In this document: positions 1-19,935 of the stretch, piece after piece
How the letters are laid out: every line of letters starts with the position of its first letter
Position numbering within the stretch: position 1 is the stretch's first letter
Assembly (NCBI GenBank): GCA_037042915.1
Contig: CM073193.1
Span: 4,712,001-4,776,000, forward strand
Direction: 5' to 3'
DNA: 64,000 nucleotides
Origin: Auricularia sp. M13
Lineage: Eukaryota; Basidiomycota; Agaricomycetes; Auriculariales; Auriculariaceae
Notes under the pieces: generated by a model
Database searches by the model: none
Told to the model about the DNA's origin: nothing
What the model saw: only the letters and a program-made list of their open reading frames with translations
Program-made: the position numbers and the translations under genes

Positions 1-60
1 CTGTGACAGCTACAGGTAAGCCATCACATTGCGTGCTTACACTCATTGGCACCGGTGGAT

Positions 61-366
61 CTAAGCGTTCTCAAGCGATCCTAAGCGGTTTTAAGCGGTC
101 TCCTCGATTAATAGAAAGTTCAACCACAACTTCTCAGCGGTCTTAAGCGGTTGCGAGTGTGTCTCAGCGGTTTGTACACAAGTTGGTCGTCAGCGGTTAC
201 AAGCGGTGCTAAGCGAACTCAAGCGGTCCTAAGCGAACTCAAGCGGTTCAAATAATATTGCTGGACTACTAGATACATTCCGCTTTCGTCCGCTTAGCCC
301 TCGATTTTGTCCAAAAGTGCGGGTTCCGCTTAGAACGATTTTGTCGCGAAGTCCGGGTTCCGCTTA
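61..366. repeat. 10-bp-phased AAGCGG array with inverted CCGCTT arm
   Basis: The left half carries AAGCG(G/A) or CAGCGG cores starting at 63, 73, 83, 93, 135, 145, 165, 191, 201, 211, 221, 231 and 241. Their register is exactly 10 bp or a multiple of it. The right half carries the reverse complement CCGCTT at about 280, 290, 326 and 360. A 10-bp register puts every core on one face of the helix, and the change of orientation around position 265 gives an imperfect inverted arrangement. This is unlike the palindrome array that begins at 410. It may be the end of another element or a protein-binding array. It encodes no recognisable gene. Confidence 0.75.
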
Positions 367-390
367 AGCTAAAAGCCCCGGTACTGCTGC

Positions 391-547
391 GAGACACTGA
401 AACAGCTCAAGTCGTGACTAGAGACGGGAAATCGGTCAGCAGTCGTGACTAGTATCGCGGAAAAGCCGGGCAAGTCGTGACTATCGAGACGGTGAAACAG
501 CTCAAGTCGTGACTAGAGACGGGGAAATCGGTCAGCAGTCGTGACTA
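391..547. repeat. Tandem duplication with 95-bp period
   Basis: Segments of about 60 bp at 391-451 and 486-547 are nearly identical. Each holds two AGTCGTGACT palindromes in the same order and spacing. The palindrome array therefore grew at least partly by local tandem duplication. Confidence 0.7.
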
Positions 548-676
548 GCACTACGGGGAAAACGCTCAAGTCGTGACTTCTGAGAGCTGTCGAAGTCGCG
601 ACTGGCGGCATGCGAAGTGCGCCAAGTCGTGACTGTAAGCTGTGCCAGTCGTAACTTGAGTCTTGTAGTCGCGACT
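410..676. repeat. Palindrome array 1a (AGTCGTGACT family)
   Basis: Nine cores match AGTC(G/A)(C/T)GACT, at 410, 441, 473, 505, 537, 569, 593, 625 and 667, plus a variant at 647. Most steps are 31-32 bp, about three helical turns. Every asymmetric copy reads AGTCGTGACT on the plus strand. The array ends about 80 bp before the small ORF at 757 and lies beyond the 3' end of the minus-strand gene 1382-5072. Confidence 0.85.
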
Positions 677-756
677 CTACTGTGGACCAAGTCCGACTCC
701 GGCCTCCTCTTTTTAAGTAACACGCCCGCCCTTCCAGATGTTCTTTCCATCTCACC

Positions 757-924
757 ATGTCCTCAATGCGCTGTCTAATTGCGCAGCAAAACCAGCATCC
801 CACACCGAACGGGGTGCCGCAGGCCTTCCTCAGTGCTCACGATGTTCGCGCACACCTCGCCTCACAGCACGTGACCATCAGAGATCTCATTGACGAGCTC
901 AACACGCTCGCTGGCGGCCGCTGA
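757..924 (+). CDS. Small ORF, 55 residues, unknown
   Basis: An ATG at 757 opens a 55-residue frame ending in TGA at 922-924 (begins MSSMRCLIAQQNQHP, ends NTLAGGR). A TTTTTAAGTA stretch (about 709-720) could serve as a TATA-like element, and the palindrome array ends just upstream. The predicted product is soluble, with a helical, mildly acidic second half (SQHVTIRDLIDELNTL). I do not recognise it. It could be a first exon or chance. The support is its position, which matches that of the other island genes relative to the palindromes. Confidence 0.3.
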   Translation: MSSMRCLIAQQNQHPTPNGVPQAFLSAHDVRAHLASQHVTIRDLIDELNTLAGGR

Positions 925-1205
925 TTGCACTTTCAGGTAAAGTTTGAGACGATACTGCCAGCCGCATACTCATAGTATTTCATCGGTAGAATCACCCTCC
1001 TTTACCTCTTCGCGTTCGAACCTGTCGCCTTGGATGTACCTCATTCTCAATCCCGCATCTGCTTGTCGTTCTCCGTGTGACGCGTGCAATAAATGCTGTT
1101 GTCGCACTAGTTCTAAAGCCGCGCGAGTTTGTGCGAGACGCGCGATTTTTAGCGCCGGTCTCGCCGCTGGCACAAAGATTCAATCCGACCATTATTTTCC
1201 GCGAT

Positions 1206-1323
1206 AGTCGCGACTAACGAGAAGCATATCTCGCGAGAGTCGTGACTATCATTAGTTGCATCTCGCGAGAGTCGTGACTATGATTATTCGCAGTCGTTAC
1301 TGTGGTCATAAGTAGTCGGGACT
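1206..1323. repeat. Palindrome array 1b
   Basis: AGTCGCGACT at 1206, then AGTCGTGACT at 1238 and 1270 (32-bp steps), then degenerate copies at about 1292 and 1314 (22-bp steps). The stretch 925-1205 between arrays 1a and 1b has only short overlapping ORFs on both strands, none of them convincing. Confidence 0.8.
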
Positions 1324-1381
1324 ACCGCACTGGCGCATTCACTGCATTATATTGTCAAAGACACGACGTTGGACGCAGTCA

Positions 1382-4300
1382 CTACAGCGGACGCATCCCG
1401 CTCCCATTGGCAAAGTTCTCGAACTGGAGGAACAGCTCAAATCTGCGCATGAGCTCAGGATCTACCGGCGTGGCGCCCACTGTTCCTGCAGCCATCGGCG
1501 CCCATGGTTCTTGCGCAAGGTGCGAGGCAGGCGCAGTCGGAGGGGGCAAAGGTGGGAGTGGCTGGCCTTGCCCCGCACCGGAAGTGGATGGCAACAATGC
1601 GCTCCCCGCGTCAAAATGCGTAACGGCCGGAATACGCGAGTCGGGAACTGGCAGGGATGACTGGAGATGCGGCTGCGCGCGGTCGCCGATGGGGCCAGCC
1701 ATCGGCGCCCTGTTTGCCTGCGCAGCAGGCACAGACTGAGCGGGAAACGGTGCGAGCCCTGCGGACGGCGTGGCGGCGGAGGCGGAGAACACGCTCGCGG
1801 GGTCGATAGTCCCGGGTTCCGACGGCGTCAGCAGCAGGTTCGTCGTGTCGACATATCCGCCTTGCACCGGCTGCTGCAGATCGAACGCCTGTGCCTCATG
1901 CTCATCGTAGTCCAAAAGAGTGGCCCCTTTCCAGTCCCGTCTAGCGCGCAAGCGTTGTCGCCCTTGGGAAATATCCCCGGGTTTTCCCTCTCCAGTTGGT
2001 CGAAGATACTCTCCGAGGGCTCACGGTTGTGTTCGCGCAACAGTTCTGCATTCTATGGTCATGTGCGCGTCAGTTCTGAGTGACGTATTTCTGTTGCTCT
2101 GTGCGTACCGTTGCCACGCTCTCCTCCTCCTCCTCCTCCATCGCGTCCTCGATCGCACCGCCGCCTCCACGCTGAGTGTTCCGCGGCTCCGCCTGGCGAC
2201 CCGCCGCCGGTGCCGCGCGGCGCTTCTTCTGCGGCGCGTCCGTCTCCTCTGTCGCCTTCTTGCGCTTCCTTGCCGGCTCTTCGCGCGCGGCCTTCGCCTT
2301 CGACGAACTCGCGCCAGGCTTGTCGTTGACCTGGTCGGCTTCGTCATCCGCCTTCGCCTTCTTAGCGACACCTGTCGCCTTGGACGATTTTGCGCCAGAC
2401 TTGCTGTCGACCTGCCCGCTGCCGGTTGCCGCGTCCTGCGCTCTCATGACATCGGCGATGCGCAGCAACACGGTGCCTTGATCTGTCGTCCAGAAAGGCA
2501 GGTTCTTCCAGTCGCTATACGAGCCTGGCTCATAGCGCGCAGCTGACGTTCCTCTGGGTGTCATCAGCTTCGACTTGTCGCGCGGTCTCTGTGATCCACT
2601 AACCTTCAGTGTACGGCACCAAGCGCAGTCCGATGACGCTGTCCGTCGGCGAGCGCAATAAAGGCCACAGAGCGTCGATGAGCTTGATCATTTCCGACCG
2701 GCTGTAGTGAGTCTGAACGATGTCCATCGGCAGCCTGACGCCGTCCGGCCAGCCCTCGACGTGGTGATCGTTTTCGTGGACCTTGGTGCCGAACTTCGCA
2801 TACGTTCCCTTTGAGCTGTCCGCAACGTCTGCGTCGATGGTACCTTTCTGCGCATCAGCATTCATCGCCGTCGTGAATGGAAAAACCATACCGAGCCACC
2901 TCTGGAGTGCCTTGCGGAGTGCACTGCGAACCATGCCCTGGTCCTTTTTCTCGCTTCAATTTCGCCTGCATGTCCTCGCTGTAATCTTCAAACGCCTGCT
3001 CCTTCAAATTGAGCGCGCTAATTAACAATACACAGTCAAGTCAGCGACGTTCTCGACGCTCGCGCCGCCGTTACACGCACCCTTGCAGGAGCACCTGCTC
3101 GTTGGCTGCCGTCGCGAGGGCTACTCCGTTTGAGGCCGCCATCTTGCGCGCTATCCGATTGTTCGCGAAGCAGCAACTTGCCTGCTGTGCCAGCGTTTGC
3201 CCCGGGCGAACGCAGATCATCCACCCGAAGACCGAGATGCCGAAGTTGTAGTAGTACGGCTCCATCTGCGAGTCCAGGTTAGACAGGTTCAAGTGTCGGG
3301 CAGTAGCAAGCTATTGAGCTTACTTCCGACTCGATGTGATTTGTGAGGCGACGCATGACCTTCGCCGTGTTGCCCAGGCTCACTTCTGTCGTCGCCAGCT
3401 CAGCATCCAGGCGCTTGTTCCATACCAGGAGCTTCTTGTGGAAAGCGTCGCGTTCGGGCTGCGTCTTCAGTTTGGCCATTTCCGCCTCGTATTCTTCGCG
3501 GCATCTTCTCGCGAAGACAATTTTCTTGTCGGGGTCTGCGGGTTTGTTAGTCGCGTCCAAGGACACTGCAAATTACCAGGTCCGCTCACCTTCACTCGCT
3601 TCGAACGCCTTGCGAACTTCTGCCCAGAACTTTGTCTGCCAGAGGTTCCATGTCGTCGGACCCTTGGACTGCAGCGCGTGGAGCACCACGCCGAGCCGCT
3701 TGATGAGGGACTGCGGCGAAACACCATACTCCTTGGCCTTGTCCTCGACCCACTTCAGGAACTTCTTCCCGCCTGCATCGAACTCGTCCGCGTACGCCTT
3801 GGGGAGAGGACCTGGCTTATATGCACCCGCAGGTCGATGAGCGCCGTCGCTGTCGTCGTCGCTTTCTTCGCTCTCGTAGCCCTCCACCGCCCTCGGGTCG
3901 AACCTGAGGCCATCGTCCTCGTCGTTGATGTCGCTAAAAGTAGCGGCCTACAATTCGCCGCCGCGGTCTTGAGTCAGTATTAACTCATGAACTACATAGC
4001 GGGCAAACGCACCTGCGCGCCATCTGCGGTCGCCGTGACCTTGTCCTCGTCGCCAGCGGCGTTAGGAGCCGGTTGTAGTGGTTCGGACGGTACAAGGTGT
4101 CCGCCGCCTCGTGCACCACGACCTCGAGCCCGACCGCGTCCACGCCCGCGACCACGCCCGCGCGCCGAGGCAGGCGCGCCGTCGTCAAGGACCCCGTGCT
4201 CCTCCGTATCCGCCTCCTCGCCATCCAATGGCCGCTCTGACGTGTCGTGCTTCGACGCGCCGAGAGCACGAGTCGCAGCGCCGTCGTCTGACTCCGCCTG

Positions 4301-5072
4301 GTCGGGCGCGCGCGCGTTGGACTTTGCCTGCTTGGCCGACTTTGGCACCAGCGGGCGCGCGTGTTGGAGGTGGGCTGCGGCTTCGCCTTCGTCGACGAGG
4401 CCTGTCCACCCGCCTTCACCTGCGCGGTCGCGTTGACGCCGCCTGCGCGGCTGTCTTCTGCGCAGGCGGCTTGAGCGGGTCCGGCGGTACCGTCTGATGA
4501 AGGACGTCCGCATTTTGCGCCTCCCAGCGGGCGGCCTGCACAAACGGGTGGTGCTCGTCAGATGCGGCCGACCTTCAGGCAAACGCTGACCGCGTACCCT
4601 TTCTGCCTCTTTTTCCGCTTCAAGTTCCTGTCTCGTCTTTCTTTTCGGACGAGCAGACCGCGACTCCTAAGCAATGTGAGGAATCGTGAGCACCATGTAT
4701 AACAGACTGAATCAATGACATACCGTGGCGAGCATAACGTCAGAGACCGCGGGCCGTGCAACGGGGTTCGACTCCTCGCGGTCGGCATGCGTGCCCACCG
4801 AAGGCGGCTGGTGGACGCATAAGCCTGACATCACCATGAGTCGCAATCACAAGAGGCTTACCTGTGCTTCACGCGCGATGACAGAGGTACCCCGTTGTCC
4901 CTGCAATTGTGTTTCTACGTCGCGAGTCAGTAACGGAAAGTTATTATGTTCAAGCAGACGACGTACCATCCGCGAGCACTGAAGGCGCGTTGTCCGGAGC
5001 CTCGGGTCCTGGCGTAATTTTGCGCGGCTCGGAGACGGTGGAATCCTTAAGCTGCGCGCGCGTGAGAGGCAT
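1382..5072 (-). pseudogene. Large multi-exon island gene with acidic and basic low-complexity regions (unrecognised, broken)
   Basis: Modelled from ATG 5072 (MPLTRAQLKDSTVSEPRK) to a stop at 1382. It has about nine exons; clear phase-matched introns lie near 3991-3961, 3586-3567, 3331-3273, 3077-3020, 2607-2559 and 2095-2042. The order of segments is: a charged N-terminus, a GRGRGRGR run (about 4130-4180), an acidic stretch, a compact block with FLKWVEDKAKEYGVSPQSL and TTWNLWQTKFWAEV (about 3600-3790, loosely HMG-box-like), a helical K/E-rich part, a tyrosine-rich MEPYYYNF segment, then a lysine/glutamate tail. By eye the best coding frame changes several times (around 4570, 4430-4350, 2950 and 1950), so it is probably decayed, although sequence error cannot be excluded. 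Palindromes at 5140 and 5171 lie just upstream of the start. I do not recognise the family. The compact block hints at DNA binding, which is inference. Confidence 0.5.
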
Positions 5073-5131
5073 GGCGTGAGTACGACGTCGGGAGAGTCAG
5101 GACAAGGCGCGACTGATGCTGGGCGCGACTG

Positions 5132-5149
5132 ACCTTTTAAGTCACGACT
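5132..5149 (-). promoter_or_regulatory. TATA-like TTAAAA next to a palindrome, upstream of the 5072 gene
   Basis: On the minus strand AGTCGTGACT runs straight into TTAAAAGG, about 65 nt upstream of ATG 5072. The palindrome therefore sits in a core-promoter position for this gene. Confidence 0.4.
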
Positions 5150-5575
5150 GCAGCTGCGCCACCCGATCGTAGTCGCGACTACACGCCCGCGCTGGGCTGC
5201 CGCCAGCGCGGGCGTGATACGGTGCCTTGCGCGCGTGGGAGGTGAGCAAGAGGGATCCGGCGAATCCCGCAGAACGGTCATCACACACCCTATTTTGCAC
5301 GCAATCTAGCCGAGCTAGTCACGACTACGATGGGACTGCTGCGGACGATCATGAATTCCATCTCCAATCAGATATCAGTCGCGACTTACGCATATGCGGT
5401 CAAATTTCAGTCGCGACTTCTCCCGCTCCAATCGACCTTAGTCACGACTTTTGGCTCTGCAATGATGTCCCAGTCGCGACTGCAGTATCATTGACTTCCT
5501 CGGACGACGCGTTGCTCTGCATCATGCAGTACTCAGTCGCGACTGAGCGGTGCGGCGCGTGGTCTAGTCGCGACT
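5140..5575. repeat. Palindrome array 2, between divergent genes
   Basis: Nine cores start at 5140, 5171, 5317, 5377, 5409, 5440, 5472, 5535 and 5566. Steps of 31, 32, 31, 32, 63 and 31 bp equal three or six DNA turns. All asymmetric copies read AGTCACGACT, the opposite orientation to array 1a, so the two arrays flank the 1382-5072 gene as inverted sets. The array fills the gap between the minus-strand gene starting at 5072 and the plus-strand acidic gene. Confidence 0.85.
5182..5216. repeat. 14-bp perfect inverted repeat (hairpin)
   Basis: The arms CACGCCCGCGCTGG (5182-5195) and CCAGCGCGGGCGTG (5203-5216) are perfect reverse complements separated by 7 nt. They lie just beyond the palindrome at 5171-5180, inside the divergent promoter region. 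Confidence 0.7.
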
Positions 5576-5929
5576 TTACCCTTCCCGCGTCGCTTACATA
5601 CCCTAGAGGTCTGCGCGCATTTCAGAGACCTGCCCTCTTTCTCTCGCTGGTTCACACTGCAGATGTCGCACTCACCTCAACTTCCGTGAGCTCGTCCTCG
5701 CATCCGCACTCTCATGACTGACAAACCTCTCTGAAGTTCTGAAGCACCGGTGCAGGAGCCTCCCGACGACGTTGGTAGCCACAGGTGTGTAGGCACACAT
5801 TCTATATTGGGTATTCCTCATCGTGCGCATTAGACTCCGGCCGACGGCGGATGCTCAGACGCGCCCGGTTAACGGTGCCTCTCAGACGGTCTCCAGTTGG
5901 TCATCAACATGGGACGACGACCAGACCGA

Positions 5930-6501
5930 CGAGGTTCAGCATGGGTCCGGCTGGCCCGAACCTGTATTCCGCCGCATCAGGGGCTGGGGTCTCCCGCCCC
6001 GCCCGGTGGCACCGACGCGAAATGGTACCACGACAGCGACGGCAGCGACAGCGACCGCGAGTTGCCCCCGGACGACGAGTTTCCCGACCCCCAGGAGGAC
6101 CGCGCCTACCTCGAGTTTGTCTTGCACCAGCGGGACTGCGCGACTCGCCGCCGAAATGCTGGGCTGCAGCCGCGGACTTGCACCAGACTGGACCCCTGCG
6201 ACGACTGTGCCGAGCACGACGGCGCGTACTTTCCTAGCACGTTCTGGCAGACCATCAGCGGCGCCAGCCTGCAGGCGCACGTCGCGGAGTATCTCGCGCG
6301 CCGGCCTTCGCTTCCCATCTGGCGCTCGACGCGGCTCCCCAACTTGCATGCTCCTCGTCTCATCTTTGGTCCGCCGCAGCATTCGGCCGCAACGCCCGTG
6401 GTCGCGGACCGATCGTCTCCGCGCAGGAGGAGGGGACTAGCCGTCCTGTTTTTGGTCCTGAACGCCCGGTCACGGAGAGCGACATCGAGCTGAGCGACTG
6501 A
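5930..6501 (+). pseudogene. Small acidic island protein (unrecognised, frame-broken)
   Basis: The clearest coding stretch (about 6020-6420) gives KWYHDSDGSDSDRELPPDDE, then FVLHQRDCATRRRN, TRLDPCDDCAEHDG and HVAEYLARRP. The best C-terminus, in another frame, is RPVFGPERPVTESDIELSD with a stop at 6499-6501. The N-terminus also reads best in a third frame from about 5940 (MGPAGPNLYSAASGAG). By eye there are at least two frame changes, so it is probably decayed. It is acidic with a few cysteines (CDDC) and no recognised domain. It is divergent from the 5072 gene across palindrome array 2. Confidence 0.4.
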
Positions 6502-6608
6502 GAGGTGAGTGATTAAGTGCTATCCTCGTTTCTCATCCTCACACTTTGCCAATCAGACGACCAGCGCACGGGAGAGGAGATGGGAGCCAAGGCATGTATA
6601 CCGTGATG

Positions 6609-7335
6609 CTAAATACACTGCCACGCCAACTTTTCCGAGTCGTACATTTCTTGAAGCAAGGACTCCCCAGCCTCATGAAGCGTGAGCAGCTCTCTGAGCC
6701 CGTGAGCAATATCATGAGCACGCTGCGCGAGTTCGTCCAGCTCGCTCTCCTCCGACTTGATGCGCCGACGCCACGCTTCGTGCCAGCCTGCCTGCGCTAT
6801 GTCGAGAACCTGCTGGGCCAAATTGGCCTTTTTGCGTAGTTCCAAATGAACTTTTGCCTGCTTCTTGCTGTTGAGCATCGTTTTGAGAAGGCGGGTCGTG
6901 TATTCCGTCCATGCGGCGTCATCATCGACGTCGTGGGCCTTCCACCGCGCCAAGTCGGCGCGGAGAGCCGCGACCGCTGCTTGCAAGGGCGTCGAATCCT
7001 GGATCTTTGCAGGACTGCCAAGTAGCTGCAAAACATCGGTGCATTTAGGCAATGGGTGGTCTGCAGGGAGCGAACGAGAACGTACCGATGTAGTGCATGG
7101 CAGTGGATCCAGCTCTCCGTGACGTTGTCTCCTGCGTTGTTTCTGCGTGTCTTTGCGAGAGTGCCAGCGTTTCAAGGCTGACAGTCTCTCCTGCTCCGCA
7201 TGGCTGCGAGGACTTCGGCTGAGAGAAACACGAGCAGGAGCGCCGGACGACGCACCTTGCGTAGTACTTGCGGCGGGCGCGCCTGCGCGCCTCTTGGCGC
7301 TCCTCCTCGGTGAGGTACTTCGGCGGTCGTCCCAT
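6609..7335 (-). CDS. GRPPKY-type putative DNA-binding protein, intact
   Basis: Three exons: 7335-7256, 7218-7086 and 7025-6609. The introns are 37 and 60 nt, and the junctions keep frame. The N-terminus MGRPPKYLTEEERQEARRRA has an AT-hook-like GRPPK followed by a strongly basic helix (residues 10-75), like the basic region of a DNA-binding factor. The C-terminal 140 residues are predicted alpha-helical and charged (RLLKTMLNSKKQAKVHLEL, then ELDELAQRAHDIAHGLREL), suggesting a coiled coil. I recall similar GRPP(K/L)Y-starting small proteins in many mushroom genomes, function unknown. It is divergent from the transposase gene, with two palindromes in the shared 624-bp promoter, and its frame is unbroken. 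It is the natural candidate for the factor that binds the palindromes, but that is inference only. Confidence 0.6.
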
Positions 7336-7849
7336 GAGCTGAAGGAGAGCCTAAAAGACCACTTGACAGTCGATTCCCGAGCGGTCAGTTCACAAGTGTG
7401 AATGGAATGGAAGAGAGGAGTCGCCGGCTTTCTCCCGCAACTATGAACTGCATGGCCTCCAGCCGCACTGTTGGAAGATATGCAACAGAAAATTAGTGCA
7501 CACTGAAGGGCATATACACTCGATTTGTTTCCCTTCATTATCGCGTGCTGAGGGGCGCGGGACGGACTACAGGAGAACATCCCAGACCTTCTGGATCGAA
7601 ATCCGGCTTTTGGCTTCTGGATCGAAAACGCGCCACTTCGCGCGCATTTCGAAACTGGTTCAGAGGTAGCATGTGGAGTGCAATTGCACGATGTTATGAG
7701 GATGGTGTACATTCATTCAGCCATACTGTAATGTCTTGGGGACTTCAGCAGACCACTGGCCAAAAGAAACGCTTTCCGGCTTCGGGATAAAAACCTGCTC
7801 AGGCTTCTGGAGAGAAACCATTTCTCATTTCGGGACAGAAACACAGTTC

Positions 7850-7888
7850 AGTCGCGACTCGGGACAGAAACACAGTTCAGTCGCGACT
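7850..7888. promoter_or_regulatory. Two AGTCGCGACT palindromes in the divergent promoter
   Basis: Perfect copies at 7850-7859 and 7879-7888 belong to a 29-bp directly repeated unit (GGGACAGAAACACAGTTC before each). They lie 72-110 bp upstream of the transposase ATG at 7960 and upstream of the divergent gene starting at 7335. The rest of 7336-7849 shows no gene. It contains 'TTCTGGATCGAAA' and 'GGCTTCTGGA' type near-repeats at about 7580-7640 and 7800-7820. Confidence 0.7.
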
Positions 7889-7959
7889 AATTTGGATGGC
7901 GATGTGTTCATCCGAGACGCGTTTCTAGACTCCGACCCGTCGTTCTATTCGCCGTCACG

Positions 7960-10900
7960 ATGAGCGCCCGCGTTCCGCACAGGCACAGGGACCAAGCGCC
8001 GGCGGGCGCGCGTGCAGACGCAGCGGAGCGCGTTAATGCAGCGCTCGCGGATCCCGACCGACCGCCCCCGCCCGTGAACCTGGACGACTACAAGTTGGTG
8101 ACCAAGTCACAACTACCCGCCGCCGCCGATTGCCCGGTGAACCCAAGCTACCGCGCGGTATTCATCGTGACGTCGCGCTCTCTCTCCCTGGCGGCAAGAA
8201 ACTGTTCCAGAAACCCGGGATCCCGCCATCTGCCGTGCCGCCGGGCGATCGGCCACAGCGGCGCTCTTCGCAGCTCGCCAGGAGGCCCCCGCCCTGAATG
8301 GTTCGACGTGGACGCTGCGCTCGGTGTCGACCAGGACGACTCCGACGACTGGGACCGCGATCACGGGTTCCATGTGCATATACCGAAGGAGTCGAACAAA
8401 TCGAGGCACCGTCGGCGACGCGTGGCGCAGAACCTGCGTTGGCGGGAAATGGCGGCTGAACGGCTCCCTCGACTGTACCTGGACCTCAAGCACGGGCAGG
8501 GCGTCGAGGATATCGCGATGTGCGGCTGCGGGAAAAGCAGGGCGCTGAAAGTGATGTGTGCGGACTGGGCAGGTGCTTGAAACCCGTGCGGCTCGTGTCG
8601 TCCGTGCAGATGCTAATTGAACTGCTGCAGGCTCGCACAGCTTATTCATAACGATTTGCGACTGTCGCCCCGCAGCAGAGCAGCTCATCGCGCGCGGATA
8701 TTTCCCTTGCGCTCCGATCTGCCCGTCCATGGCGTTCCACTTGGATCTCCTGCATTTCATCTCCATCCATTCCCTCCTCGTTGCCCCGAACGTGACGGCC
8801 TGGGCAGAGACCCTCGAGACTTTCTGGACGCGCGACGCGCCGCAGGAAAAACTTACGGTATTTGCAACGTGATCGCATTTCGCCAGCGACTGACGGATCG
8901 ACCGCTGCTTTCAGGGACGGCTGCGCAAGCGTCTAGGGATGGCGCTTACCTGGTACCAGGTCGTTCTGAACAAGGCGGACCTTCTTGTCGAGTCGGAACT
9001 GCACAGTGAGCACCGCGGTTGCGTTTGAGGAATGTGCGCCGCCGACAGCTGATGACAGCGTGATTTCCCCTGCTACAGAACATCGCCCAGCTCACGGGAA
9101 CAGCGTGCCGCCCGAGCGCGACGACGACGGGGCAGCAGATCGCGCGCAGCAAGACGACGACGGGGCAGCAGATCGCGCGCAGCAAGACGACGGGCACGCC
9201 GCGGCTGTCAATCGCCGCGCCGTCGTGCGCGGCGAGGGCGATGGGGTGCAGGCAGTCGCCGCCGGCGTCGGCGTCGGCGACGGCGACGGCGACAGCGACG
9301 GCGTGGAGGCGACTGCGCAGCGCCGTCCGTCCGCATCTCTGAGACAGAAGTGCGCGTTATGCTTCGGCGGCGAAAGACCTGCGCTTGTGCATTCAAAGTG
9401 CGTCGCGGTATCGCTCAATTTTGTACAGGGCTGACGCTGTGCACAGAGCGCACGTCATAGTCTGTCTCGATGCCAATTTTGCGCAGAAGCAGACGCAAAT
9501 GCGCGGATGGCGACCCACCCTCGAGTTTCTTCCGTCGCGCTTTGCGACGGAGGCTGAGGCGTCCTCGATGGCCGCCGAGATGGAGACTTTGCAGAAACGA
9601 CCAGTCCGGCGGCGCAGGAAGGGCAAGGCCGCGCGCGTGAACGATGAGGTCCTCGACCAGTGCGAGCAGTCGTTCATCGCCGCGCAGGAGAAGGTCACAA
9701 AGGCCTCTAAGAATTATTTTGCGGACACTGGCCTGATGGCCTTGCTCTGCCGTCACGACCGCGTCCTCTGGGTCGTCAGTATATCCACACCGGGCGAGCG
9801 GCAGTTCTACGCGCTCACGCTTCTGCGCAAGCTCGGCGAGGAGATCCCCGGCACTGGAGGGTCGGTTTGCTCTACGACATCGCGTGTCAGCTGAGTCGTG
9901 GCATAGAAAAGGTCTGTGACAGTTGTGCTCTCCCGAAGATGATGTGCGCTAACAGGACATTCAGTGGGGTTATCTTCCAGAATTTGCGGATCGATTCGAG
10001 TTCGCTGTTTCGGTCTTTCACGCGTACGGGCATCAGTGGGAATGCCAAGTCGTGTTCCACCCCCGCAAATGCGAAGGCTTTGGCTTGAGCGACGGCGAAG
10101 GGTGTGAACGGTTCTGGAGCTCTATTCGACACCTGATATCCGGGCCGGCGTCTCTGGGGTGCGTGTACAATCCCGCACAGTATGAGGCAAATTAACTGAC
10201 GCGTGCAGTTCTACCGCCGCTTGTTTGTGCTGAACCGTCAGATGGATGCGCTGAGCAAGAGCGCTGTGGAAAATAGGCACGTGGTTGCGACGGAAGTACC
10301 TCGAGGCCCAGAGGCGTCTTGGTGAGGCGCGGGCGATCCTGTTGGGCACGGGCGTGCCGCGCGTCGAGCTGCGCGCTCAGTGGAAGCTGCAAGTGGATGC
10401 ACAGCTGGCGAAAAACACTCGTATGCTCACTTCACGGCACCCGAAGCATATGTACACGCTGACCGCATTTCAGGACTTTCGGCCAATGCGGGCGACAAGG
10501 CGATCGACGAGATCCTTGTCGCCCTCGCGACAGTGCAGGACTACAAGGACGAAATCCGCGACCTGCGCAAGGAGCTACGGAAGGCGCACGCGCTCACCGC
10601 TGGCCAGTTGCAAAAGACCACCGCGGCGCTGGAAGCCGCGCGACGAAACCTCGAGACGACGGGAGCGCGTCGTTGCATTACACGCGACGTTGGGCACCGA
10701 GCGCTGTCGCCGCCTGGAGGAGATGCGCGGCAATGCATACGTGTGCGCGCGCGTCAATGCACGCGCTATGCGTGCGGCCATTCGGGCTAATCTCGTCAAG
10801 CACAAGTTCGAACATCGCAAGGTGGAACGCGCGTACAGGCACCAAGTTCTCGGTGAGTTGCATTGCAGTGCAATACGCCGGCACGCATACTAACGCCAGG

Positions 10901-12677
10901 TCCAGAGGCCCGCGAGCACAGCCAAACGAAAGACGCAATCCAGCGTCGCGAGCAAACCCTAACGGCACAGGTCAAGAAGTACAACGCCTTGGTCGACAAC
11001 ATGAGACGGCTCGCGCGGCAGGGTCTAAAGCCTCCTGGGCGGTCACCACTGCCCAAGACGTTGGAGGCGAAGAAGCTGTTCAAGCTGGACGTAGACGACG
11101 AAATCTGGCAGGAAGACCCAGGCCTCGGGCCACAGGACGAAGGCGACATCCCGCGCTGGCAGGCCGACGACAACGTCAAGCGTGGCATACTCGCATTGCT
11201 GGAGGAAGATCGGTGTCTGGAGGAGATGGAGCGGCTCGACGCCGAGCAAGCCGCGTTGGCGCAGTGGTGGAAGGAAGAAGACAGTGCCATGCGCGCGTTC
11301 TGCGCAGAGGCTTCGGGTACGCGCTGCGTGATAGCTGCCAGAGCATCGCTGACATCACTATTAGGGGGTAGCAGTGTTCTGGGCGCGATAGAGCGTCGAT
11401 TGGAGACTCACCGACGTATGCTGCAGGTCTGGCAGCACGATCTCAGGTCCTGCGCGCTTGGGCTCCGCCGCAGCCGCTACAGATACAACAGCCCGAGAAG
11501 AAGAAGCGCGGAGTTTCTCAATGTCGCCGCCGCCGTCGCCGCGCGAGGTCGACTCGGATGACGCGTCAGACGCATATTCCGATATCCAGGAAGATGACGA
11601 CCCATTCCTCGTGGATATCCTCGATGCGATGGTGCTGAAGGATGAAGGAGAGGGAGAGGGGGGGGGGGAGGAGGTGAACGCGATGGCGTCGCAGCTGCAA
11701 GATGCTGCGGATATACGGGCAGACGCTCAGGTGAGCACTTCGAGTTGGAGGAAGGTGCTACTGATACAGACCTCGTCGACGCAGCAGGACGTCATGGAGG
11801 ACTCTGAACCTGAGTCTATACGCGACGCGACGCGACCGAAGAGAACGCGGGCGGTCCGCTGGGTATATCAGGCTGGCGACTTCAGGTGCTGGGACGAAGA
11901 CGTCGACCGTATGGCCCAGCGTACCGCCTGGTTATCGGGACCGGGCCTTACGGTTTTCTTGCAGCACTCACTGGAGCAATCGGGCCAGCAGAACATCAGC
12001 GTCTTGCACTCGGTCATTCTGGCCGACATCGAGTCGTATGCAAATTTCAGTACGGACGGCAACGCGGCGGGAGCCGAGACCAGCAAGAAGCATGTGGTTC
12101 TGGCTCTCAAAAGGGTTCGCACATTCAATTCACGTATGATTGCGGCTCCAAGTTGACTTTGCAGGCCGTTGCGCCGTCTCGGGCTCGGAAATGGTTGATG
12201 CTAGGCCATGTACCGAACCCGGGACACTGGACGCTTCTGGAAATCCGGTGGCCGCAGCGAGCGATCCACTTCTACGACAGCTTCTCGCGTCGGGGGTACG
12301 CAAACCGTCTAGAAAAACTGACGCGCATGCTCTTGGACATATGCGGCGAGGTTTTTGGTGACGACGTCAGCGGCAAAGACTTCCAGTGGCATGGGGAACA
12401 GGTACGCGATCCGTGCTTTGCTATATGACCGGGGAGGGAATGACACCATTACAGCGTGAGAGCAGGCAGACCAACGGCTGGGACTGCGGTCCGTTCGCGG
12501 CGGCCGATGCGGTGAATCTGATGACCGCCGATATTCGAGTTCATTGACGAGAGCGACATGATGAACTGGCGGGAACGTATGGTTGCTGCGGTGCGTCCAC
12601 TCAGGGTCATAGACAGTGAAAAGGCTCGCAGTGCCGCGACGGGTGTAGCGATCGAGGTTATAGAGATATCTGACTAG
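7960..12677 (+). pseudogene. KDZ-superfamily transposase with C-terminal Ulp1/C48 SUMO-protease domain (degenerate)
   Basis: A DNA transposase of the Kyakuja-Dileera-Zisupton superfamily. Visible parts in order: N-terminal region with basic KESNKSRHRRRRVAQNLRWR (about 8390-8450); Cys-rich CGCGKS followed by GYFPCAPICPSMAFHLDLL (the cysteine cluster known next to KDZ cores); a variable D/A-rich insert with two DDDGAADRAQQ repeats; CALCFGG; VIVCLDANF with the first catalytic Asp; FADTGLMALLCRHDRV; LLYDIACQLSRGIEKW; FHAYGHQWECQVVFHPR; GFGLSDGEGCERFWSS; then a long helical region with KLFKLDVDDEIWQEDPGLG. The Ulp1 part (about 11,850-12,540) shows LSGPGLTVFLQHS, PGHWTLLEIRW (His), HFYDSF (Asp) and TNGWDCGPFAAADAV (Cys). 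The end reads EVIEISD, like a SUMO-interaction motif. About nine short introns fit. The best frame changes at around 8150-8290, 9860, 10250 and 12530, so the copy looks inactive unless these are sequencing errors. Confidence 0.8.
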
Positions 12678-12770
12678 GCGTGCTTGATGAAGATTGGTGC
12701 AGGCGTCCGTACATAAACTGCTGAACGAATATAGGCTTTTGATAGCATGCTAGCACTCTCCTGTGGCTGT

Positions 12771-13434
12771 AGTCACGACTAGGCGCGACACTGCTAGCAG
12801 GATACCCGGCGATGAGACAGTCACGACTGCAAAATCATCATAGTCGTGCTTTTTTGCAAGAGAACAGTCGCGACTAGGCAGAGGGGCAAAATGAACGGAT
12901 TCTTTGCAAGAGCTCATCGATCTTATGCGCCCTTTCAGGATCCATTTGCTGAGTGTGGCGCCCTTACGCGATGTGCTTTATAGTCATAACTGCTCGACTC
13001 ACAGGAATCCGGGATTTGCCGCAGTGCGACCGTCGGCCACATCGTCTCGACAGAAGCAATGCAAAGGTACGTGGGTGAGGTGGTATACTGATTGACAGTC
13101 GTATTGGTTCACTCCGGCTGCATAAACATGAGATAGTCGCGACTGAAACAGCGACTGGGCAGCCATAGTCGTGACTGATTCTCAGGTGCGCTGCGTGTAG
13201 TCGTGACTACGATGGATTTCAGACAAGACCCGTAGTCGTGGATATGCTACCTGCAAAGCACGAGAGACAAAACAAAATGGGTATCTCCGAGAAAGTCGGG
13301 ACTGAGATTGGATCGTGGCGAACGAGTCACGACTGAAAGAGCTCTGGCTAACCATAGTCGTGACTGTCCGTTCAGTGAATTGCAGCTAGTCACGACTACG
13401 CAGAATTCCCGCACGAGATCACATAGTCGTGCCT
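12771..13434. repeat. Palindrome array 4, downstream of the transposase gene
   Basis: Nine exact cores at 12771, 12819, 12866, 13135, 13167, 13199, 13325, 13356 and 13388, with decayed copies at about 12842, 13234, 13294 and 13425. Steps of 32, 32, 31, 31 and 32 bp recur. Both asymmetric orientations are present. No coding sequence is convincing in 12,678-14,081. Confidence 0.8.
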
Positions 13435-14081
13435 ATCCGCTCCGAGCAGACATAAGCAAGACCAACTTCATTAAGGACAACTTCAAGCGCGCTCCATGTC
13501 GCGAGTACAAGTACTGTAATGAATTGACCACGCAGCCAGCTGGATGCGCATGACCTGACGTTGAGCACGAGATGTGCCGGCGATGGCGGCGCGATAATCG
13601 CGAATGGCCCGCTGCCTGAAGTTGGAGGTCGTCTCTACGTGTTGTGCGGCTCTCAGAGAAGTCCAATGAAGGGATTCAAGCCTTGACTCACCATCTAGCC
13701 TGGTGTGGACTGCATACCAGCGGTGAATGAAGAGGTGGTAGACAGTGCAGCGGCTCAGCCGGATTGAGAGAGCCGCCCTGCATTCGTAGTATGCAGCACC
13801 AGCGCGTCGCCGGTATTCCGAGGGGGACTCTGGGTATTTATTTCATGAACGAAATACGTTGTGCGGATGCGGCAGACGTGCCGTTCACAGAAATCGGGTT
13901 GGACTGCACCCAATGGTCAAGGAAGGCGCTGAACACGGTGCAGCGTCTGAAGCCCGTCCGCGGCGCAGTCTCGCGGTAGGTCCTAGAAACTGCTCCGGAT
14001 GTGGGTAGCATCGGGGAGATGAGGGGAAGAGGAAGGATGGGATGATAGGACCGCGAAAGAAAGGACAAGATGATTGACTCT
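13435..14081. other. Interval with no supported gene
   Basis: Only short, unconvincing ORFs occur on both strands. There are no palindromes and no recognised motif. Confidence 0.5.
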
Positions 14082-14256
14082 AGTCACGACTAATCAAGTG
14101 CGGAGCAAAGCAAAGTCGTGACTAGCGCGCGCTAAAGTCGTTGGCGCGCCAAAGTCGTGACTGGCGCGCGCCAAAGTCGTGACTGCCGCGTCAGCCAAAG
14201 TCGCGACTTTGGCTCGCGCTGCTCCGCGACTTTGGCTGACGCGGGCAGTCACGACT
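14082..14256. repeat. Palindrome array 5 upstream of the orphan gene
   Basis: Cores at 14082, 14114, 14153, 14175, 14199 and 14247, with a variant at 14136. Steps are 32, 22, 17, 22, 24 and 48 bp. GGCGCGC runs separate several copies. The array ends 88 bp before ATG 14344. Confidence 0.8.
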
Positions 14257-14258
14257 TT
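14173..14258. repeat. Long hairpin (33-34 bp arms) built from palindromes
   Basis: The left arm 14173-14205 and right arm 14225-14258 are reverse complements, differing by one extra G in the right arm. Each arm carries one full palindrome at its outer end, and the left arm's inner end lies in another. The loop is about 19 nt. The structure is centred about 130 bp upstream of ATG 14344. Confidence 0.8.
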
Positions 14259-14343
14259 CTGGATCCTGGGGCTGCGCTCGCAGCTGCAGAGAGTAAGTTT
14301 GAGGCGAACCGCCGCGGAGGCGCGCCGCCATAGAAAGTGAAGA

Positions 14344-15887
14344 ATGGAAGGCGCACAGCCACCTGTTCAAAACAGGCTTGCACGGCCCCGAGCACTGCCA
14401 CAAGCGCGTTGGGTCAAATACTGGGAGCCCTCGCGCGTCGACCGTGTTTGTCTGATTATCCCCACCATGGTCCGCGCTGCCTACGTTATGCCGACAAACG
14501 CTGCCGACGAGGTCGCGCAGTTCGGCTATGTGCTCGAGTCTGTGGACACCCTGGCGGACCTGCCAGAGGACTTTGTGTGTTGCAACGACGACCACCGCGA
14601 CGAACTGCTGTCGGAGAACACTGAGTGTCTCAACTGCGTTGGACGCCTGCCGAAGGCCTGTGAGCCTGTGAGATACCCTCGTGACCTCTTTGTAAGCTGC
14701 CCGCAGCCTGGTTCGCTGTTCAATGCTAACGCACGCCACAGCCGGTAGTCTTCGTGAACGGCGACGGTATCATCTGCTGCTATCTTCTGGCTGCGTACGC
14801 CCCCATCGCCGCCGACCTGCTGAACACTGGGCCTCGTTCACCTGACTGGATGAAGCGGCTGTTCGAGTTGCTCGTTCGCATCTTCCTCACGTATAGACTC
14901 GTCACAGCAGCGTTCAAAGGGCGCCCGAGGGCTGTCATTATACGTTCCAAGAAGCACTGGGCAGATCGCGCGTCTAGACTGATCGAGCCTGCGCTCGCTG
15001 ACCATGTGATCGACGAGGGCTCAAAGCTGTGGAACATCTCGCTGGCTCTTGGGGCTGCTTTCGTGGAGATGCTCGATGATCCGTCCCTCATGCCTGCTGC
15101 GCTCGGAGTCCCACTCGAGAAGGCCCAAGTTGCCTTCGATTACTACCAGCACGGTCTCTCGAACTCTCTGCCGGCGTTCAAGGCTTGCATATACTGCCAC
15201 AACGACCCGAACGCGAAGGGAAAGGCCCGCAAAAACCGCATCCTACGCGTGTGCATGGTGTTTTCGAACCGCCGGTGCTGCCTGGGCTGTGACATACAGA
15301 GTCGGCGGTTTCGCATTTGCTTCGACCCGGACGCCGAAGTCGACTCGGACGCAACCATGAGCGCGGCCGGCGACACGGACGGCGACGCGGACCGCGGCGC
15401 GGACGGTGCCGCGCACGGCAGCGCAACCGAGGTGAGTCTGAGAACGTTCTCATGGATTTGCCGCTGACGAACTGCATAGCTTGACCTGCCAACCGTGTCA
15501 GCAAAGCGGCGGAGGCCGGCGGCGTCGGGCCCCGCGTCAAGCACTCGATCCGCCCAGAAGCGACCGCGCCGGGCGCGGAAAGCAAAGCCCAAGGCGTCCC
15601 GCGCGACTCGTCGCGGAAACCACGTCGATTCCGATGGCGACAATGAGGGCAAGGACGCGACGGTCACGAAGGCAATGAAAAGCATTCGGCGCAAGCTGAC
15701 AAAACTCGAGAAGGGGCAGAAGGAAACCCAGGAGAGCATCAACGAACTCCGTGGGGAGCTGCGCAGGTTGGTAAAGGCCGTAGCACCTCGTGCCGCGTCC
15801 ACCGACGTCGAGGCTGAATCCTCTGATGACTCGTCTGCTGTTGTAATCGCTTCTGTACCGCCTGGAGTTATGTCCCCGGAGCTGTAG
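14344..15887 (+). CDS. Orphan island protein with Cys clusters and C-terminal coiled coil, intact
   Basis: Three exons keep one frame: 14344-14667, 14742-15431 and 15480-15887, about 473 residues. The order is: an N-terminal soluble region with CCNDDHRDELLSENTECLNC (four cysteines and a histidine); a mostly hydrophobic helical middle (FVNGDGIICCYLLAAYAPIA to about residue 250); a second cysteine cluster (CIYCHNDPNAKGKARKN ... CCLGC); an acidic D/G-rich linker; a basic nuclear-localisation-like stretch (KRPRRARKAKPKASRATRR); and a coiled coil with TKAMKSIRRKLTKLEKGQKE. The pattern suggests a nuclear, zinc-binding, self-associating protein, which is inference. I do not recognise the family. Palindrome arrays lie on both sides, and unlike the transposase its frame is unbroken. 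That suggests youth or selection. Confidence 0.6.
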
Positions 15888-15963
15888 TCTCGGTTTCGTG
15901 TAATAGATAACTTTCGCCTTGAAGTGACTGAGCCAATCAACCGTCGCGAGCACGATAAAAGCC

Positions 15964-16141
15964 AGTCACGACTTTGTACAGGCTGTGGTGCGGCTCAGTC
16001 ACGACTTTGTACAGGCTGTGGTGCGGCTCAGTCACGACTTTGTACAGGCTGTGGTGCGGCTCAGTCGCGACTATGGCTGCAGTTCAGTCGCGACTGATGT
16101 GCGGATTCAGTCACGACTAATGCTTCAGTGTAGTTGCGACC
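15964..16141. repeat. Palindrome array 6 with 33-bp tandem unit
   Basis: A 33-bp unit beginning AGTCACGACTTTGTACAGGC is repeated three times from 15964, 15997 and 16030. AGTCGCGACT follows at 16063 and 16086, AGTCACGACT at 16109 and a decayed copy at 16132. The step changes from 33 to 23 bp, that is from three to two helical turns. All asymmetric copies read AGTCACGACT. Confidence 0.85.
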
Positions 16142-17140
16142 GACGGTGTTGTTCAGACGAGGCGCGCTTATGTAGAGACTGAGACAACGCAAGCCTAGGG
16201 AGATGAAGACATCGATAAGAGACGGAGGCGAGTAAACAACATCTGTTGTGCGTGATCGAGCACGTCAAGCTGAGGGCGAGTCGACCGTGGAGTCCCGCGG
16301 CAGCGAATCTCGGTGGCTGGTGAGGACGGACGGCCTCCGTCTTGGAGGGGGGGGAGGACATGAGTGCGGTCAGAAAGGAAGGCTGGGAAGCCCGCGTAGG
16401 CCAATTGCAGTTATAATATGACGGAAACCGAGAAAGTCGTGACTACCAGGTAGGCCGCGCTGGGGGACTCTGATGGAAGTCGCGACTTTGCGAAGGGGCT
16501 GAGGGATCTGGTCTAGATTACCACAGCTGTAGCAGCTCATACAGTGCTCTGAAAACCATGTGTAGCCGCTCGTGCTGCTGTGGTGTTAACCCCTGCGCGA
16601 ACGAGGTATATGCCGTCATAGCCCTATCAGCGTGTTGTTGAACAGACTCTTGATTAATCCGGTTATGAGAATTGGAATACGACCACCAAAGTCTGTATCA
16701 GCGCACCGTTCGCACGAATGGGATGTACGCGAAACCACAAGTAGTAGTAGAGAAGCATCAGGTCACTGCTCTCACGCTCGGGTACGAGACTTAGGCTGTC
16801 ACTGCGGGCTCTAGGCATGGCTCTTGAACACGGAGACGACTGCTGTGCTCAAATAGGCAACGTTTACGGAGTTGCGCCTCTTATAGCCAGGGATGGAGAT
16901 CTTGATCGGGGTCTAGTCAAGACTGGTGCGTCATGGCCAGGGTGCAGTCGCCAGCTCAGTCGCGACTGAGGTAAACCCACAGGCAACGAGGGTACGAGGG
17001 GAGAAAGTCCCGGCTAGTCAGGACTGTATCCTGCACCACCGGCAGGGACCATCTTATACACGGAAGGGATACGCCTACTTAGGTCTATAGAAGGGAGGCC
17101 TGAGCTGGTTTGTTCTGCGAGAGCTTAAACTTCCCAACGA
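16142..17140. other. Right edge of the island, sparse palindromes, no supported gene
   Basis: Isolated palindromes lie at 16435, 16478 and 16958, and decayed forms such as AGTCCCGGCT near 17005. A run of nine G occurs near 16350. I see no convincing coding exon. The last exact palindrome, ending at 16967, marks the end of the island. Confidence 0.5.
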
Positions 17141-17357
17141 GTTGAACGACGCGTGCGGGCGGACCGCGACGCAACTGAGCCAGTGGATGGCCGCATTGCA
17201 TGGGGTAGTTGTCGCCTATGAGAGCTGGCTTTCTACAAGCGCTACCACTGGTGCTTATCCAGTAAGTCAAATGCTTTTCGAGTGGCCATTCAATGTGATA
17301 ACGACTGTTGTCAGGGAGTTCAATTGCCGATGAAGGTTCGCTGCTTGATAGCTGCGA

Positions 17358-18652
17358 TTGGAAGCGCTCATTTCGGGCAGCTCGAAACCAAGCCGTGGAC
17401 GTTGGATAATAAACCATGTGGGCGATGATTTCACGCCTTCCAAGTCTTCGTGCTACTCAAAGCCGAAAATTTCAGATAGAGATCTGTCCTCGTTAATCAC
17501 CGACGTCGAGAAGAGGAAGGCGGTCCCTGAGACGGGATGGGCAAAAGTCATGAGAGGCAAACTAGCCCACAAAAGCCGCACGAAGCCTCGCGAAGTCAGT
17601 GAAAAGAATGGAGCCTGTTCAATGGAGGTTCACCTACCGCATTTTCACAGGTCGTTGCGATCAAATCCTTCATATGGGAGACGATTGGTGACAATGTGAT
17701 CAATCCTGTATGTTTGCATAACATGTTCCACGATATAGTGGATTATTAATCTCATTTGCAGCGTTTCCTTAGAGATCTCAAGGCTCGGACCTCCCCGAAG
17801 CATCCCAACATCCTTCCTGTGTATGGTGTGTATGGTGAGGTCACAGCTCTGGGCAGATTCCCCGCGTTGGTCTCCCCGTGGTGTACGACCGTCAACAAGT
17901 ACATCGCATCACGGCGCTCTCAAGTACATGCCGAACTGCGTGTGATTACCATTGTACTGGATCTGGTCAGCAGCCTTATTCCAAGTTGCAGACGCCCATG
18001 CTGATTCCGCATTTCCCGTGGAAGTCTGAGCAACTGCTCAGTGCGCTCAAATACAGTGCGTTTCCTAGCCGGAACTGAGTGGCCTCACTCACATAATGCA
18101 GTCCATGGCCAAAGCAAGGAGGGATGTCATGGGAACTTGAAAGCTGTATAGAATTTCAGCTTCATCTTCCATCACTACACTGACAGTCTCTCGCAGACAA
18201 ACTTGCTGGTCTCGCAAGACGGACGGCTCCAGCTGACCGATTTCGGGATCGGATTACCGCAGATCGGGACGGATCGTCACCTGGAACAAGCATCATTGGC
18301 ATACCTCAGTCCAGAGCTCACAACGAGGATCAGTGGACCTACGCCAGAGAGTGATATGTGGGCTGCAAGCTGCGCCTTCGTCGAGGCAAGTGTGCTGAAC
18401 TGCGATTTTGCGTCCGAGTCGATGACCGGCATACTACAGATGCTCACTGGCCAAGTCCCATGCCACAAGCTACAGAACGGCGAGATCAAGTTGGGCAGAG
18501 CTCCGACCAATCGGAAGCCAAGCGGGGTCACGGTAAACCTCTGGAACCTCATCTGGGAGAACTTCCGCGACCCAAAGAAGCGTTTATCTGCATCCTTCAT
18601 GCTTACTCGTTTGTGGATCCTGCGCTATCAGGACAACCTTTTGGGGGAGTGA
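17358..18652 (+). pseudogene. TKL-like protein kinase homologue, catalytic Asp replaced (pseudokinase or decayed)
   Basis: The N-lobe includes KAVPETGWAKVMRGKL, then after an intron VVAIKSFIWETIGDNVIN with the beta-3 lysine (about 17,652-17,705). Next come HPNILPVYGVYGEV and ALVSPWCTTVNKYIASR. The catalytic loop reads HGNLKATNLLVSQDG once a short intron (about 18,150-18,198) is removed; the usual HGDLKxxN Asp is Asn. LTDFGIG keeps the DFG motif, and YLSPEL plus SDMWAASCAFVEA follow. The stop is at 18650-18652. The middle (17,990-18,140) is hard to splice into one frame, so the gene may be broken. Two relatives lie at 45.6-46.8 kb and 47.3-48.1 kb. Such TKL-like kinases are expanded in Agaricomycetes. 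The 5' end is uncertain. Confidence 0.6.
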
Positions 18653-19054
18653 CGAATCCATCGAGTTTTAAAAACATTTCAACCCACGCTGTATTTGTAG
18701 CCTGGCGGATTTAACAAATCCCACGCCTTCTTCGTACTCACCAATGCGGCCCTGACTCTGCCCTGACAATTGACTAATAGACCTCAATCTGCCGTGTCCG
18801 TCTCCGAGTAGATATCATCTTCGGAAATCCAAACGGCCACAAACAATGAAACATTGCTGCAATCGCGGCGATCGGCGCTCTGCAGCCGTGTGTGGGATAC
18901 GGACATCGCCACGAGGCTCCCGTCGAGCGCGACCGGAGAGCTGCGGGGGAGCCTTGTCCGTAACAGCTTGACATCACCGGAACCCATTCCCCGGAGTGCT
19001 TGAAACAGACGCGGCTCGGAGTTCGTCCTCTTCTCCTTCTCGCCCCCCAACACC
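18653..19054. other. Intergenic, upstream of the LINE-split gene
   Basis: No gene seen. A CT-rich stretch (TCCTCTTCTCCTTCTCGCCC) lies just before ATG 19055, as is common in fungal 5' leaders. Confidence 0.4.
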
Positions 19055-19738: not shown

Positions 19739-19757
19739 TTTTTTTTTTTTTTTTTTT
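19739..19757 (-). repeat. Poly(A) tail of the LINE
   Basis: Nineteen T on the plus strand, between the target duplication and the LINE 3' UTR. Confidence 0.95.
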
Positions 19758-19935
19758 GTGGAGCGTCAGGAGGGGCTCGAACACATAGTGATCAGAGCTG
19801 GCCTCCTTTGTCCCGTTAGGGACGCTAAATGCGTAACCGGTCGGTTACGCTGTAGGGAAGTTGTACAGGAGGGGACGTCTCCGCCCGGAGAAATGGCCGT
19901 TAGCACACCTGGTAGGGTAGTGTGGGGCTTGGGGA

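Follow-up and report, generated by a model that had tools for sequence, protein, structure and literature searches.

A transposon of 18,796 bp, element E, was delimited by comparing three copies in the 52-Mb genome of Auricularia sp. M13. The right part of one copy lies in the window, the whole stretch of 64,000 nucleotides that was analysed. The left 2,048 bp of this copy were located outside the window at C1:4675086-4677133, separated from the right part by a 35,256-bp insertion, K2. Genes and boundaries are given below, the target duplication without strand:

1..389, plus strand: K2 (right end), another KDZ element, which has inserted into array 1 of E; CA..TG ends, 7-bp duplication CGAGACA
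390..17107, plus strand: element E, right part of one copy (16,718 bp), from the three-copy comparison
1380..5070, minus strand: gene B, from open frames; extent estimated, many introns, unspliced
5785..6501, plus strand: putative gene C, weak, an open frame only
6600..7335, minus strand: gene D, with a basic start (MGRPPKYLTEEERQEARRRARRKYY) and long helices
7960..12690, plus strand: transposase gene, extent estimated; profile matches to CxC1, KDZ and, weakly, Ulp1-like
14344..15887, plus strand: gene F, extent estimated; the frame of its last exon has a basic part
17108..17115: target duplication GTTTGTTC flanking E on the right; its other copy lies immediately left of C1:4675086

All three copies of E had CA..TG termini and target duplications of 8, 7 and 7 bp, the 8-bp duplication being that of the window copy; the end sequence reads CACCA. 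With several copies flanked by target duplications E is mobile. The copies are young and very similar. They vary in the length of their arrays. A search for target duplications within the window alone had been abandoned, as it gave 15 chance 7-bp CA..TG pairs and the left end is outside.

The transposase gene contained a KDZ domain in 9385-9891 (PF18758, E 1.5e-19, 71 bits vs a cut-off of 26.6), a CxC1 match in 8636-8869 (PF18802, 31.9 bits vs 26.9) and a weak Ulp1-like match in 11886-12425; CxC2 scored below its cut-off. Gene D had no match in Pfam. Its single-sequence structure model was helical with a pLDDT of 73, whereas that of gene F, which has 28 distant relatives in the genome, was too low for use (pLDDT 40). 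One exon of gene B had 10 distant matches, all 10 upstream of a KDZ gene on the opposite strand, and the same position was found for 13 of the 15 distant matches of gene D. Because of this recurrent order B-D-KDZ is a conserved module. A search with bacterial settings found no tRNA genes in the window, and Rfam gave no matches in 1-20000.

Judged from its ends and domains E is a Kyakuja-type KDZ DNA transposon. Kyakuja elements have CA..TG termini, a 7-bp target duplication and no TIRs according to the available part of Kojima 2025 (PMC12730594). E shares with them the CA..TG ends, the 7-bp duplication in two of three copies, the KDZ transposase and the CxC1 cluster. It differs in the 8-bp duplication of the window copy, in an imperfect inverted repeat at its ends, in the lack of a TET/JBP match (0 of the 19 matches in the genome lie inside any E copy) and in its palindrome arrays, which that part of the paper does not describe. 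The elements KDZ1-KDZ3 of Cryptococcus neoformans likewise combine a KDZ transposase with CxC1 and target duplications, theirs being of 4-8 bp in elements of about 9-11 kb, but their TIRs are clear and measure 139-241 bp; neither 'subterminal' nor 'tandem repeat' occurs in the accessible text on them (PMC12810828).

The palindrome AGTCRYGACT occurred in 47 exact copies in the window, all within 410-16967, and in 60 at up to one mismatch, while each of five order-1 Markov sequences of window length had none. Per copy of E there were 55-57 exact sites. None of the 47 fell within the coding spans estimated for the window copy, which cover 11,419 of 16,718 bp. The sites are arranged as follows, without strand and with steps in bp:

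410..676: array 1, 9 exact sites and 1 mismatch site in tandem 32/96-bp units; interrupted by K2
1206..1323: array of 3 exact and 2 one-mismatch sites; steps 32, 32, 22, 22
5105..5575: arrays between gene B and putative gene C, 9 exact and 1 one-mismatch site; main steps 31, 32, 60, 63
7850..7888: two sites at a distance of 29 bp, products of a 29-bp tandem duplication; the pair ends 71 bp ahead of the transposase ATG
12771..13434: arrays that separate the transposase gene from gene F; steps 48, 47; 32, 32; 31, 31, 32, 37
14082..14256: array of 6 exact sites; steps 32, 39, 22, 24, 48
15964..16118: array 6; steps 33, 33, 33, 23, 23, with a 33-bp tandem unit
16435..16487: two exact sites, 43 bp apart
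16915..17025: right subterminal sites, 1 exact and 2 one-mismatch, at least 82 bp from the right end

The centres of the 57 RY-centred sites in the C6 copy were GC (22), GT (22) and AC (13), but never AT (Fisher p 0.0008; 0.005 once near-identical contexts were removed). Thus every RY-centred site retains one perfect half, AGTCG or CGACT. Lattice-spaced pairs numbered 77 genome-wide in the forward motif vs 14 in the reversed control. Among the matches listed these pairs were nearly confined to the E family: of 100 lattice places listed for both strands, 88 belonged to the C1 or C4 copy and 12 lay elsewhere, the C6 copy not being among them. The rest of the genome had about 226 exact sites, below the 341 of the reversed control. 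Since single sites are not enriched there, the privacy of the motif rests on arrays. Selection on sites vs spacers was not demonstrable between copies this similar (1,050 site bases had 0 substitutions and 1,892 spacer bases had 5, p 0.17; the comparison covered 8.8 kb of the 16.7-kb right part of the window copy).

A preliminary description had the palindromes spaced by whole helical turns, 31-33 and 22-24 bp, independently of sequence. Most of its quoted steps and both classes were confirmed, with differences in detail. The five steps of 32 bp in array 1 were wrong, as the positions give 31, 32, 32, 32, 32 and then 25. The array at 5317-5566 begins with 60 instead of 31 and continues as quoted with 32, 31, 32, 63 and 31. 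At 13135-13388, where one member has one mismatch, the quoted values are present, but 95 bp intervene: 32, 32, 95, 31, 31, 32. The first five steps of array 6 hold, while its alleged third 23 reaches a two-mismatch copy at about 16132, after the last member of the 15964-16109 run.

Arrays 1 and 6 turned out to be tandem duplications with conserved spacers; in the C6 copy, homologous spacers number ten in array 1, and array 6 has a pair of 33 bp and a pair of 23 bp. Without these two stretches (gaps starting at 2000-2300 and 17680-17760 of the C6 copy), 15 of 39 gaps up to 70 bp were 31-33 bp (binomial p 2e-9 vs uniform 20-70) and 10 were 20-25 bp. The spacers of the 15 gaps had a mean gapless identity of 0.303 vs 0.277 when shuffled (a value reached in 0 of 500 shuffles); for adjacent spacer pairs (n=6) it was 0.382 vs 0.275 (3 of 2000). 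Spacers of the 31-33 bp gaps are hence close to unrelated, not fully; those in 5105..5575 are nearly unrelated. Spacing independent of sequence was therefore borne out outside arrays 1 and 6. Tandem duplication, named beforehand as refuting it if it explained the spacing fully, accounts for these two arrays but leaves the 15 other gaps.

The expected 10.5-bp period was recovered from pairwise distances up to 250 bp, where it was the strongest among 8-40 bp (R 0.347 vs 0.090 for jittered gaps, 0 of 2000). This set comprised 92 pairs of 54 sites in 14 arrays, tandem copies being removed by omission of the C6-copy sites at 2000-2317 and 17685-17750. A 31.5-bp lattice would likewise give 10.5 bp, as its third harmonic. 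For adjacent gaps alone about 9 bp fitted better than 10.5 bp (R 0.616 vs 0.519; exact sites, 30 independent spacers), and the 14 gaps outside both classes had no 10.5-bp phase (Rayleigh p ~0.64). In turns, 31-33 bp correspond to 3.0-3.1, whereas 22-25 bp correspond to 2.1-2.4 and so only roughly to two, which puts the short step as much as 0.4 turn out of phase. Spacing by whole turns is supported only in part. Taken together, a step of about three turns does exist, though it arises in part from tandem duplication.

Sites were present at both ends of E, 82 and 139 bp from the left and 83 (one mismatch) and 141 bp from the right end, inside an inverted repeat that is imperfect and about 110 bp long. 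The repeat scored 79 vs a maximum of 46 in 1000 shuffles, and 53 vs 47 with the site removed; a strong TIR was not found. The earlier suggestion of a transposon was well founded, as the sites belong to a KDZ element whose ends are defined, which has target duplications and which carries sites at matching distances from both ends. Since the majority of sites lie well away from the ends, end complexes alone cannot account for them, and a regulatory role is also needed. Same-face cooperative binding at the putative sites is plausible.

We consider it rather probable that the palindromes of this 18.8-kb Kyakuja-type KDZ DNA transposon serve as docking sites for a protein that E itself encodes. The near confinement of lattice-spaced pairs to the E family, among the matches listed, suggests that the palindrome is bound by a dimer of the element's own making. 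Such dimers would line up along the AGTCRYGACT sites, with one dimer to each step and neighbours facing roughly the same side of the DNA. At both ends of E these dimers would recruit and pair the transposase, and in promoters they would regulate E's own genes. Tandem duplication in arrays 1 and 6 would have added sites while retaining the step. Because of its basic start and long helices, gene D is the leading candidate for encoding this protein; B or the CxC1 region of the transposase would come next.

Such a protein would have a counterpart in En/Spm-type CACTA elements, where short element-specific end repeats, with motifs that vary by family, are bound by the element-encoded accessory protein TnpA, also a regulator (PMC2613891, available part). 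E similarly has a family-specific repeated motif near both ends with putative binding, yet its transposase and ends are unrelated, and its arrays with the 32/22-bp step also occupy internal intergenic regions. Membership of E in CACTA/En-Spm was discarded, given the CACCA ends and KDZ transposase; the resemblance is in working only. In the hAT element Hermes short subterminal repeats, with a quasi-palindromic pair bound cooperatively by two BED domains, are required beyond the TIR; there the binder is a transposase domain (PMC10368747, available part).

The step might instead be inherited: a 32-bp unit of single origin would have been multiplied by tandem duplication and unequal exchange, its spacers drifting and its palindrome being kept, with no selection for helical phase. 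Tandem duplication is recognisable in arrays 1 and 6 and in the 29-bp promoter pair, array length differs among E copies, and the small excess of spacer identity elsewhere points the same way. We nevertheless find this doubtful, since most spacers outside arrays 1 and 6 are unrecognisable as related despite the recurrent 31-33 bp gaps, and since kept palindromes and matching end positions would go unexplained. Sites serving solely as operators of E promoters, with no part in end pairing, would suit their mostly internal, intergenic location and the pair just ahead of the transposase ATG. This is unlikely in view of the matching sites in the inverted repeat at both ends, and in En/Spm the single protein TnpA performs both roles (PMC2613891, available part).

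A host factor, e.g. a silencing or methylation-linked protein that recognises the sites and marks E, appears very improbable. The site centre is CpG-rich, every RY-centred site retaining at least one central CpG, and cytosine methylation silences many fungal transposons (PMC12730594, available part). A general host factor, however, would not be family-specific, whereas the lattice pairs are nearly limited to E copies among the matches listed, K2 has a different and private motif, and single sites are not enriched elsewhere.

K2, with a KDZ match at C1:4679312-4680094 in a frame that contains stops, carries the motif CGCTTRAG in 10-bp steps. The same design with another motif hints at family-private codes. 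The genome is rich in KDZ transposons, with 149 exon-level domain matches; AGTCNNGACT was found in 0 of 30 other KDZ loci (L010-L039, 3.35-3.75 kb, mostly coding sequence). The only array among these, GTTASTAAC at L020, proved to be a MITE-like insert of about 0.5 kb.

We tentatively propose that each Kyakuja-type family might mark both of its ends and most of its intergenic intervals with a private palindromic address, arranged on a helical lattice, and that a co-evolving protein of the B-D-KDZ module might assemble the ends and control the genes of its own family only. In the literature we found no account of how KDZ transposons recognise their own ends. A motif common to ends and promoters and, among the matches listed, nearly restricted to one family offers a direct handle on the binding protein, and a private motif could explain how many related families share one genome without moving each other.

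The site-bearing region codes for a KDZ transposase (PF18758, E-value 1.5e-19) with a CxC1 cluster (PF18802, E-value 1.6e-7) in profile searches, while a Ulp1-like match was weak (PF02902, E-value 0.013, below the cut-off). Array 1, the KDZ exon and one exon of gene F have close copies on both C4 and C6. Comparison of the three copies placed the ends of the transposon, element E, at CACCATAGG...GAGCTG; the C6 copy, free of large insertions, measures 18,796 bp. The target duplications were GTTTGTTC (C1), CAACTCG (C4) and TCCTCTC (C6); the window copy starts at C1:4675086, ~37 kb before the window (C1:4712001-4776000) begins. CA..TG ends and a 7-bp target duplication are the traits of Kyakuja in Kojima 2025 (PMC12730594), and E fits Kyakuja in both. 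Judging by where KDZ elements occur, the host is probably a basidiomycete fungus.

The C4 copy contains two young LTR retrotransposons at window-equivalents ~1470 and ~4479; one has 284-bp LTRs that are 99.6% alike, the other 855-bp LTRs at 99.8%, and both have duplicated target bases. In its flank are two tandem arrays (C4:3747106-3747217 and C4:3755427-3755580) whose units of 20 bp and 21 bp each span about two turns of the helix. In the window, an open frame of 1,792 aa with endonuclease and reverse transcriptase domains (19939-25314, minus strand) is probably a LINE-type retrotransposon, and 52932-53094 is an exact 81-bp tandem duplication.

A pattern count of the palindrome AGTCRYGACT gave 47 exact sites in the window, all within 410-16967, and 60 sites with up to one mismatch; five order-1 Markov sequences of window length yielded no exact site. 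The 52-Mb genome (14 contigs) has 395 exact sites, with 55, 57 and 57 in the regions around the three copies of E. This leaves ~226 sites elsewhere, whereas the reversed control gave 341; thus single sites are not enriched outside E.

Layout of element E in the window copy
Before gene B: array 1, then the second array
Between the second array and the next arrays, minus strand: gene B, estimated from open frames
Between gene B and putative gene C: arrays
Between these arrays and gene D: putative gene C
Between putative gene C and the site pair, minus strand: gene D
7850-7888: site pair, ending 71 bp before the transposase ATG
From 7960: transposase gene
Downstream of the transposase gene: arrays, then gene F
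Then: array 6 and further sites, and the right end of E at 17107

All 47 exact sites fall outside the coding spans, which are unspliced estimates from open frames (11,419 of 16,718 bp). The interval between genes C and D of the window copy likewise had no exact AGTCRYGACT.

The palindromes had been described as spaced by whole helical turns, with spacers that are mostly not conserved. Spacing was analyzed on 68 sites with up to one mismatch in the C6 copy, which gave 52 gaps of up to 70 bp and 37 independent spacers. The regular runs in arrays 1 and 6 are the product of tandem duplication. However, when two tandem stretches were left out, 15 of 39 gaps still measured 31-33 bp and 10 measured 20-25 bp, while the 14 gaps outside both classes were unphased. 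We take the step of about three turns as real and that of about two turns as approximate. Pairwise site distances peaked at 10.5 bp, the period for which the preliminary description had proposed a test. Yet a period of ~9 bp fitted the adjacent gaps alone better and 10.5 bp is a harmonic of the 31.5-bp lattice, which together with the unphased gaps weakens a strict helical reading. Outside the tandem stretches the spacers were nearly unrelated, with a slight excess of identity (0.303 vs 0.277; 0.382 vs 0.275 for six adjacent spacer pairs). Gaps of 41, 42, 47 and 50 bp had half-sites close to their middle, whereas those of 43, 48, 57, 60 and 63 bp had none there.

The centres of 61 AGTCNNGACT sites of the C6 copy were GC (22), GT (22), AC (13), GG (2), AA (1) and AG (1). 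Because AT was absent, every RY-centred site (57/57) keeps one perfect half, AGTCG or CGACT, as would be expected if a dimer needed one good half. Among near-matches close to full sites a perfect half was kept in 10 of 20. The outermost sites are 82 and 139 bp inward of the left end of E; their counterparts at the right end are at 83 bp (one mismatch) and 141 bp. These matching sites fall within an imperfect inverted repeat, while those further inward are unmatched in position (161 left vs 184 right).

Forward lattice pairs of 31-32 bp numbered 77 genome-wide vs 14 in the reversed control. Among 100 matches listed for both strands, the C1 and C4 copies accounted for 88 and other places for 12; this list stops short of the C6 copy. 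K2, a second KDZ element of 35,256 bp (C1:4677134-4712389), is nested in array 1 of E, its right end being window 1-389. It has CA..TG ends, a 7-bp target duplication (CGAGACA) and a KDZ match with a frame interrupted by stops. Its ends are 77% alike in inverted order over ~210 bp, and its right-end DNA matched only K2 itself in the genome. Its motif differs from that of E: CGCTTRAG, mostly in 10-bp steps, near both ends; all six genome matches of the doubled pattern are at the left end of K2. Because lattice pairs are mostly in copies of E and K2 has a motif of its own, these sequence data favour an element-encoded reader of the sites over a host factor, in a comparison of two KDZ elements in full.

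With E's own copies left out, distant matches of gene B (10/10) and gene D (13/15) lay up to 12 kb upstream of a KDZ relative on the opposite strand. Ten of the 21 KDZ relatives in the reference set had both; these ten loci, on C3, C4, C5, C6, C7, C9 and C11, belong to diverged KDZ elements within this genome. Judged by these matches, B and D are parts of a conserved KDZ module. Gene D starts with MGRPPKYLTEEERQEARRRARRKYY, and long helices were predicted for its second exon frame (single-sequence model, pLDDT 73); we infer that its product is a candidate dimeric DNA-binding protein. Adjoining a KDZ core on C11 is a MITE-like insert of ~0.5 kb (locus L020, 2077-2554) with GTTASTAAC arrays at both ends, in steps of 11, 16, 14, 12 and 11, 15, 12, 14.

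A full-text search of the available papers for Kyakuja, KDZ and Zisupton with subterminal repeats gave no description of such arrays. The mechanism proposed for E follows En/Spm TnpA (PMC2613891) and the BED domains of Hermes (PMC10368747). By this analogy, element-encoded dimers probably act on arrays, ends and promoters: they would occupy the site arrays, would bring both ends together for the transposase and would regulate the promoters of E, including via the pair just before the transposase gene.
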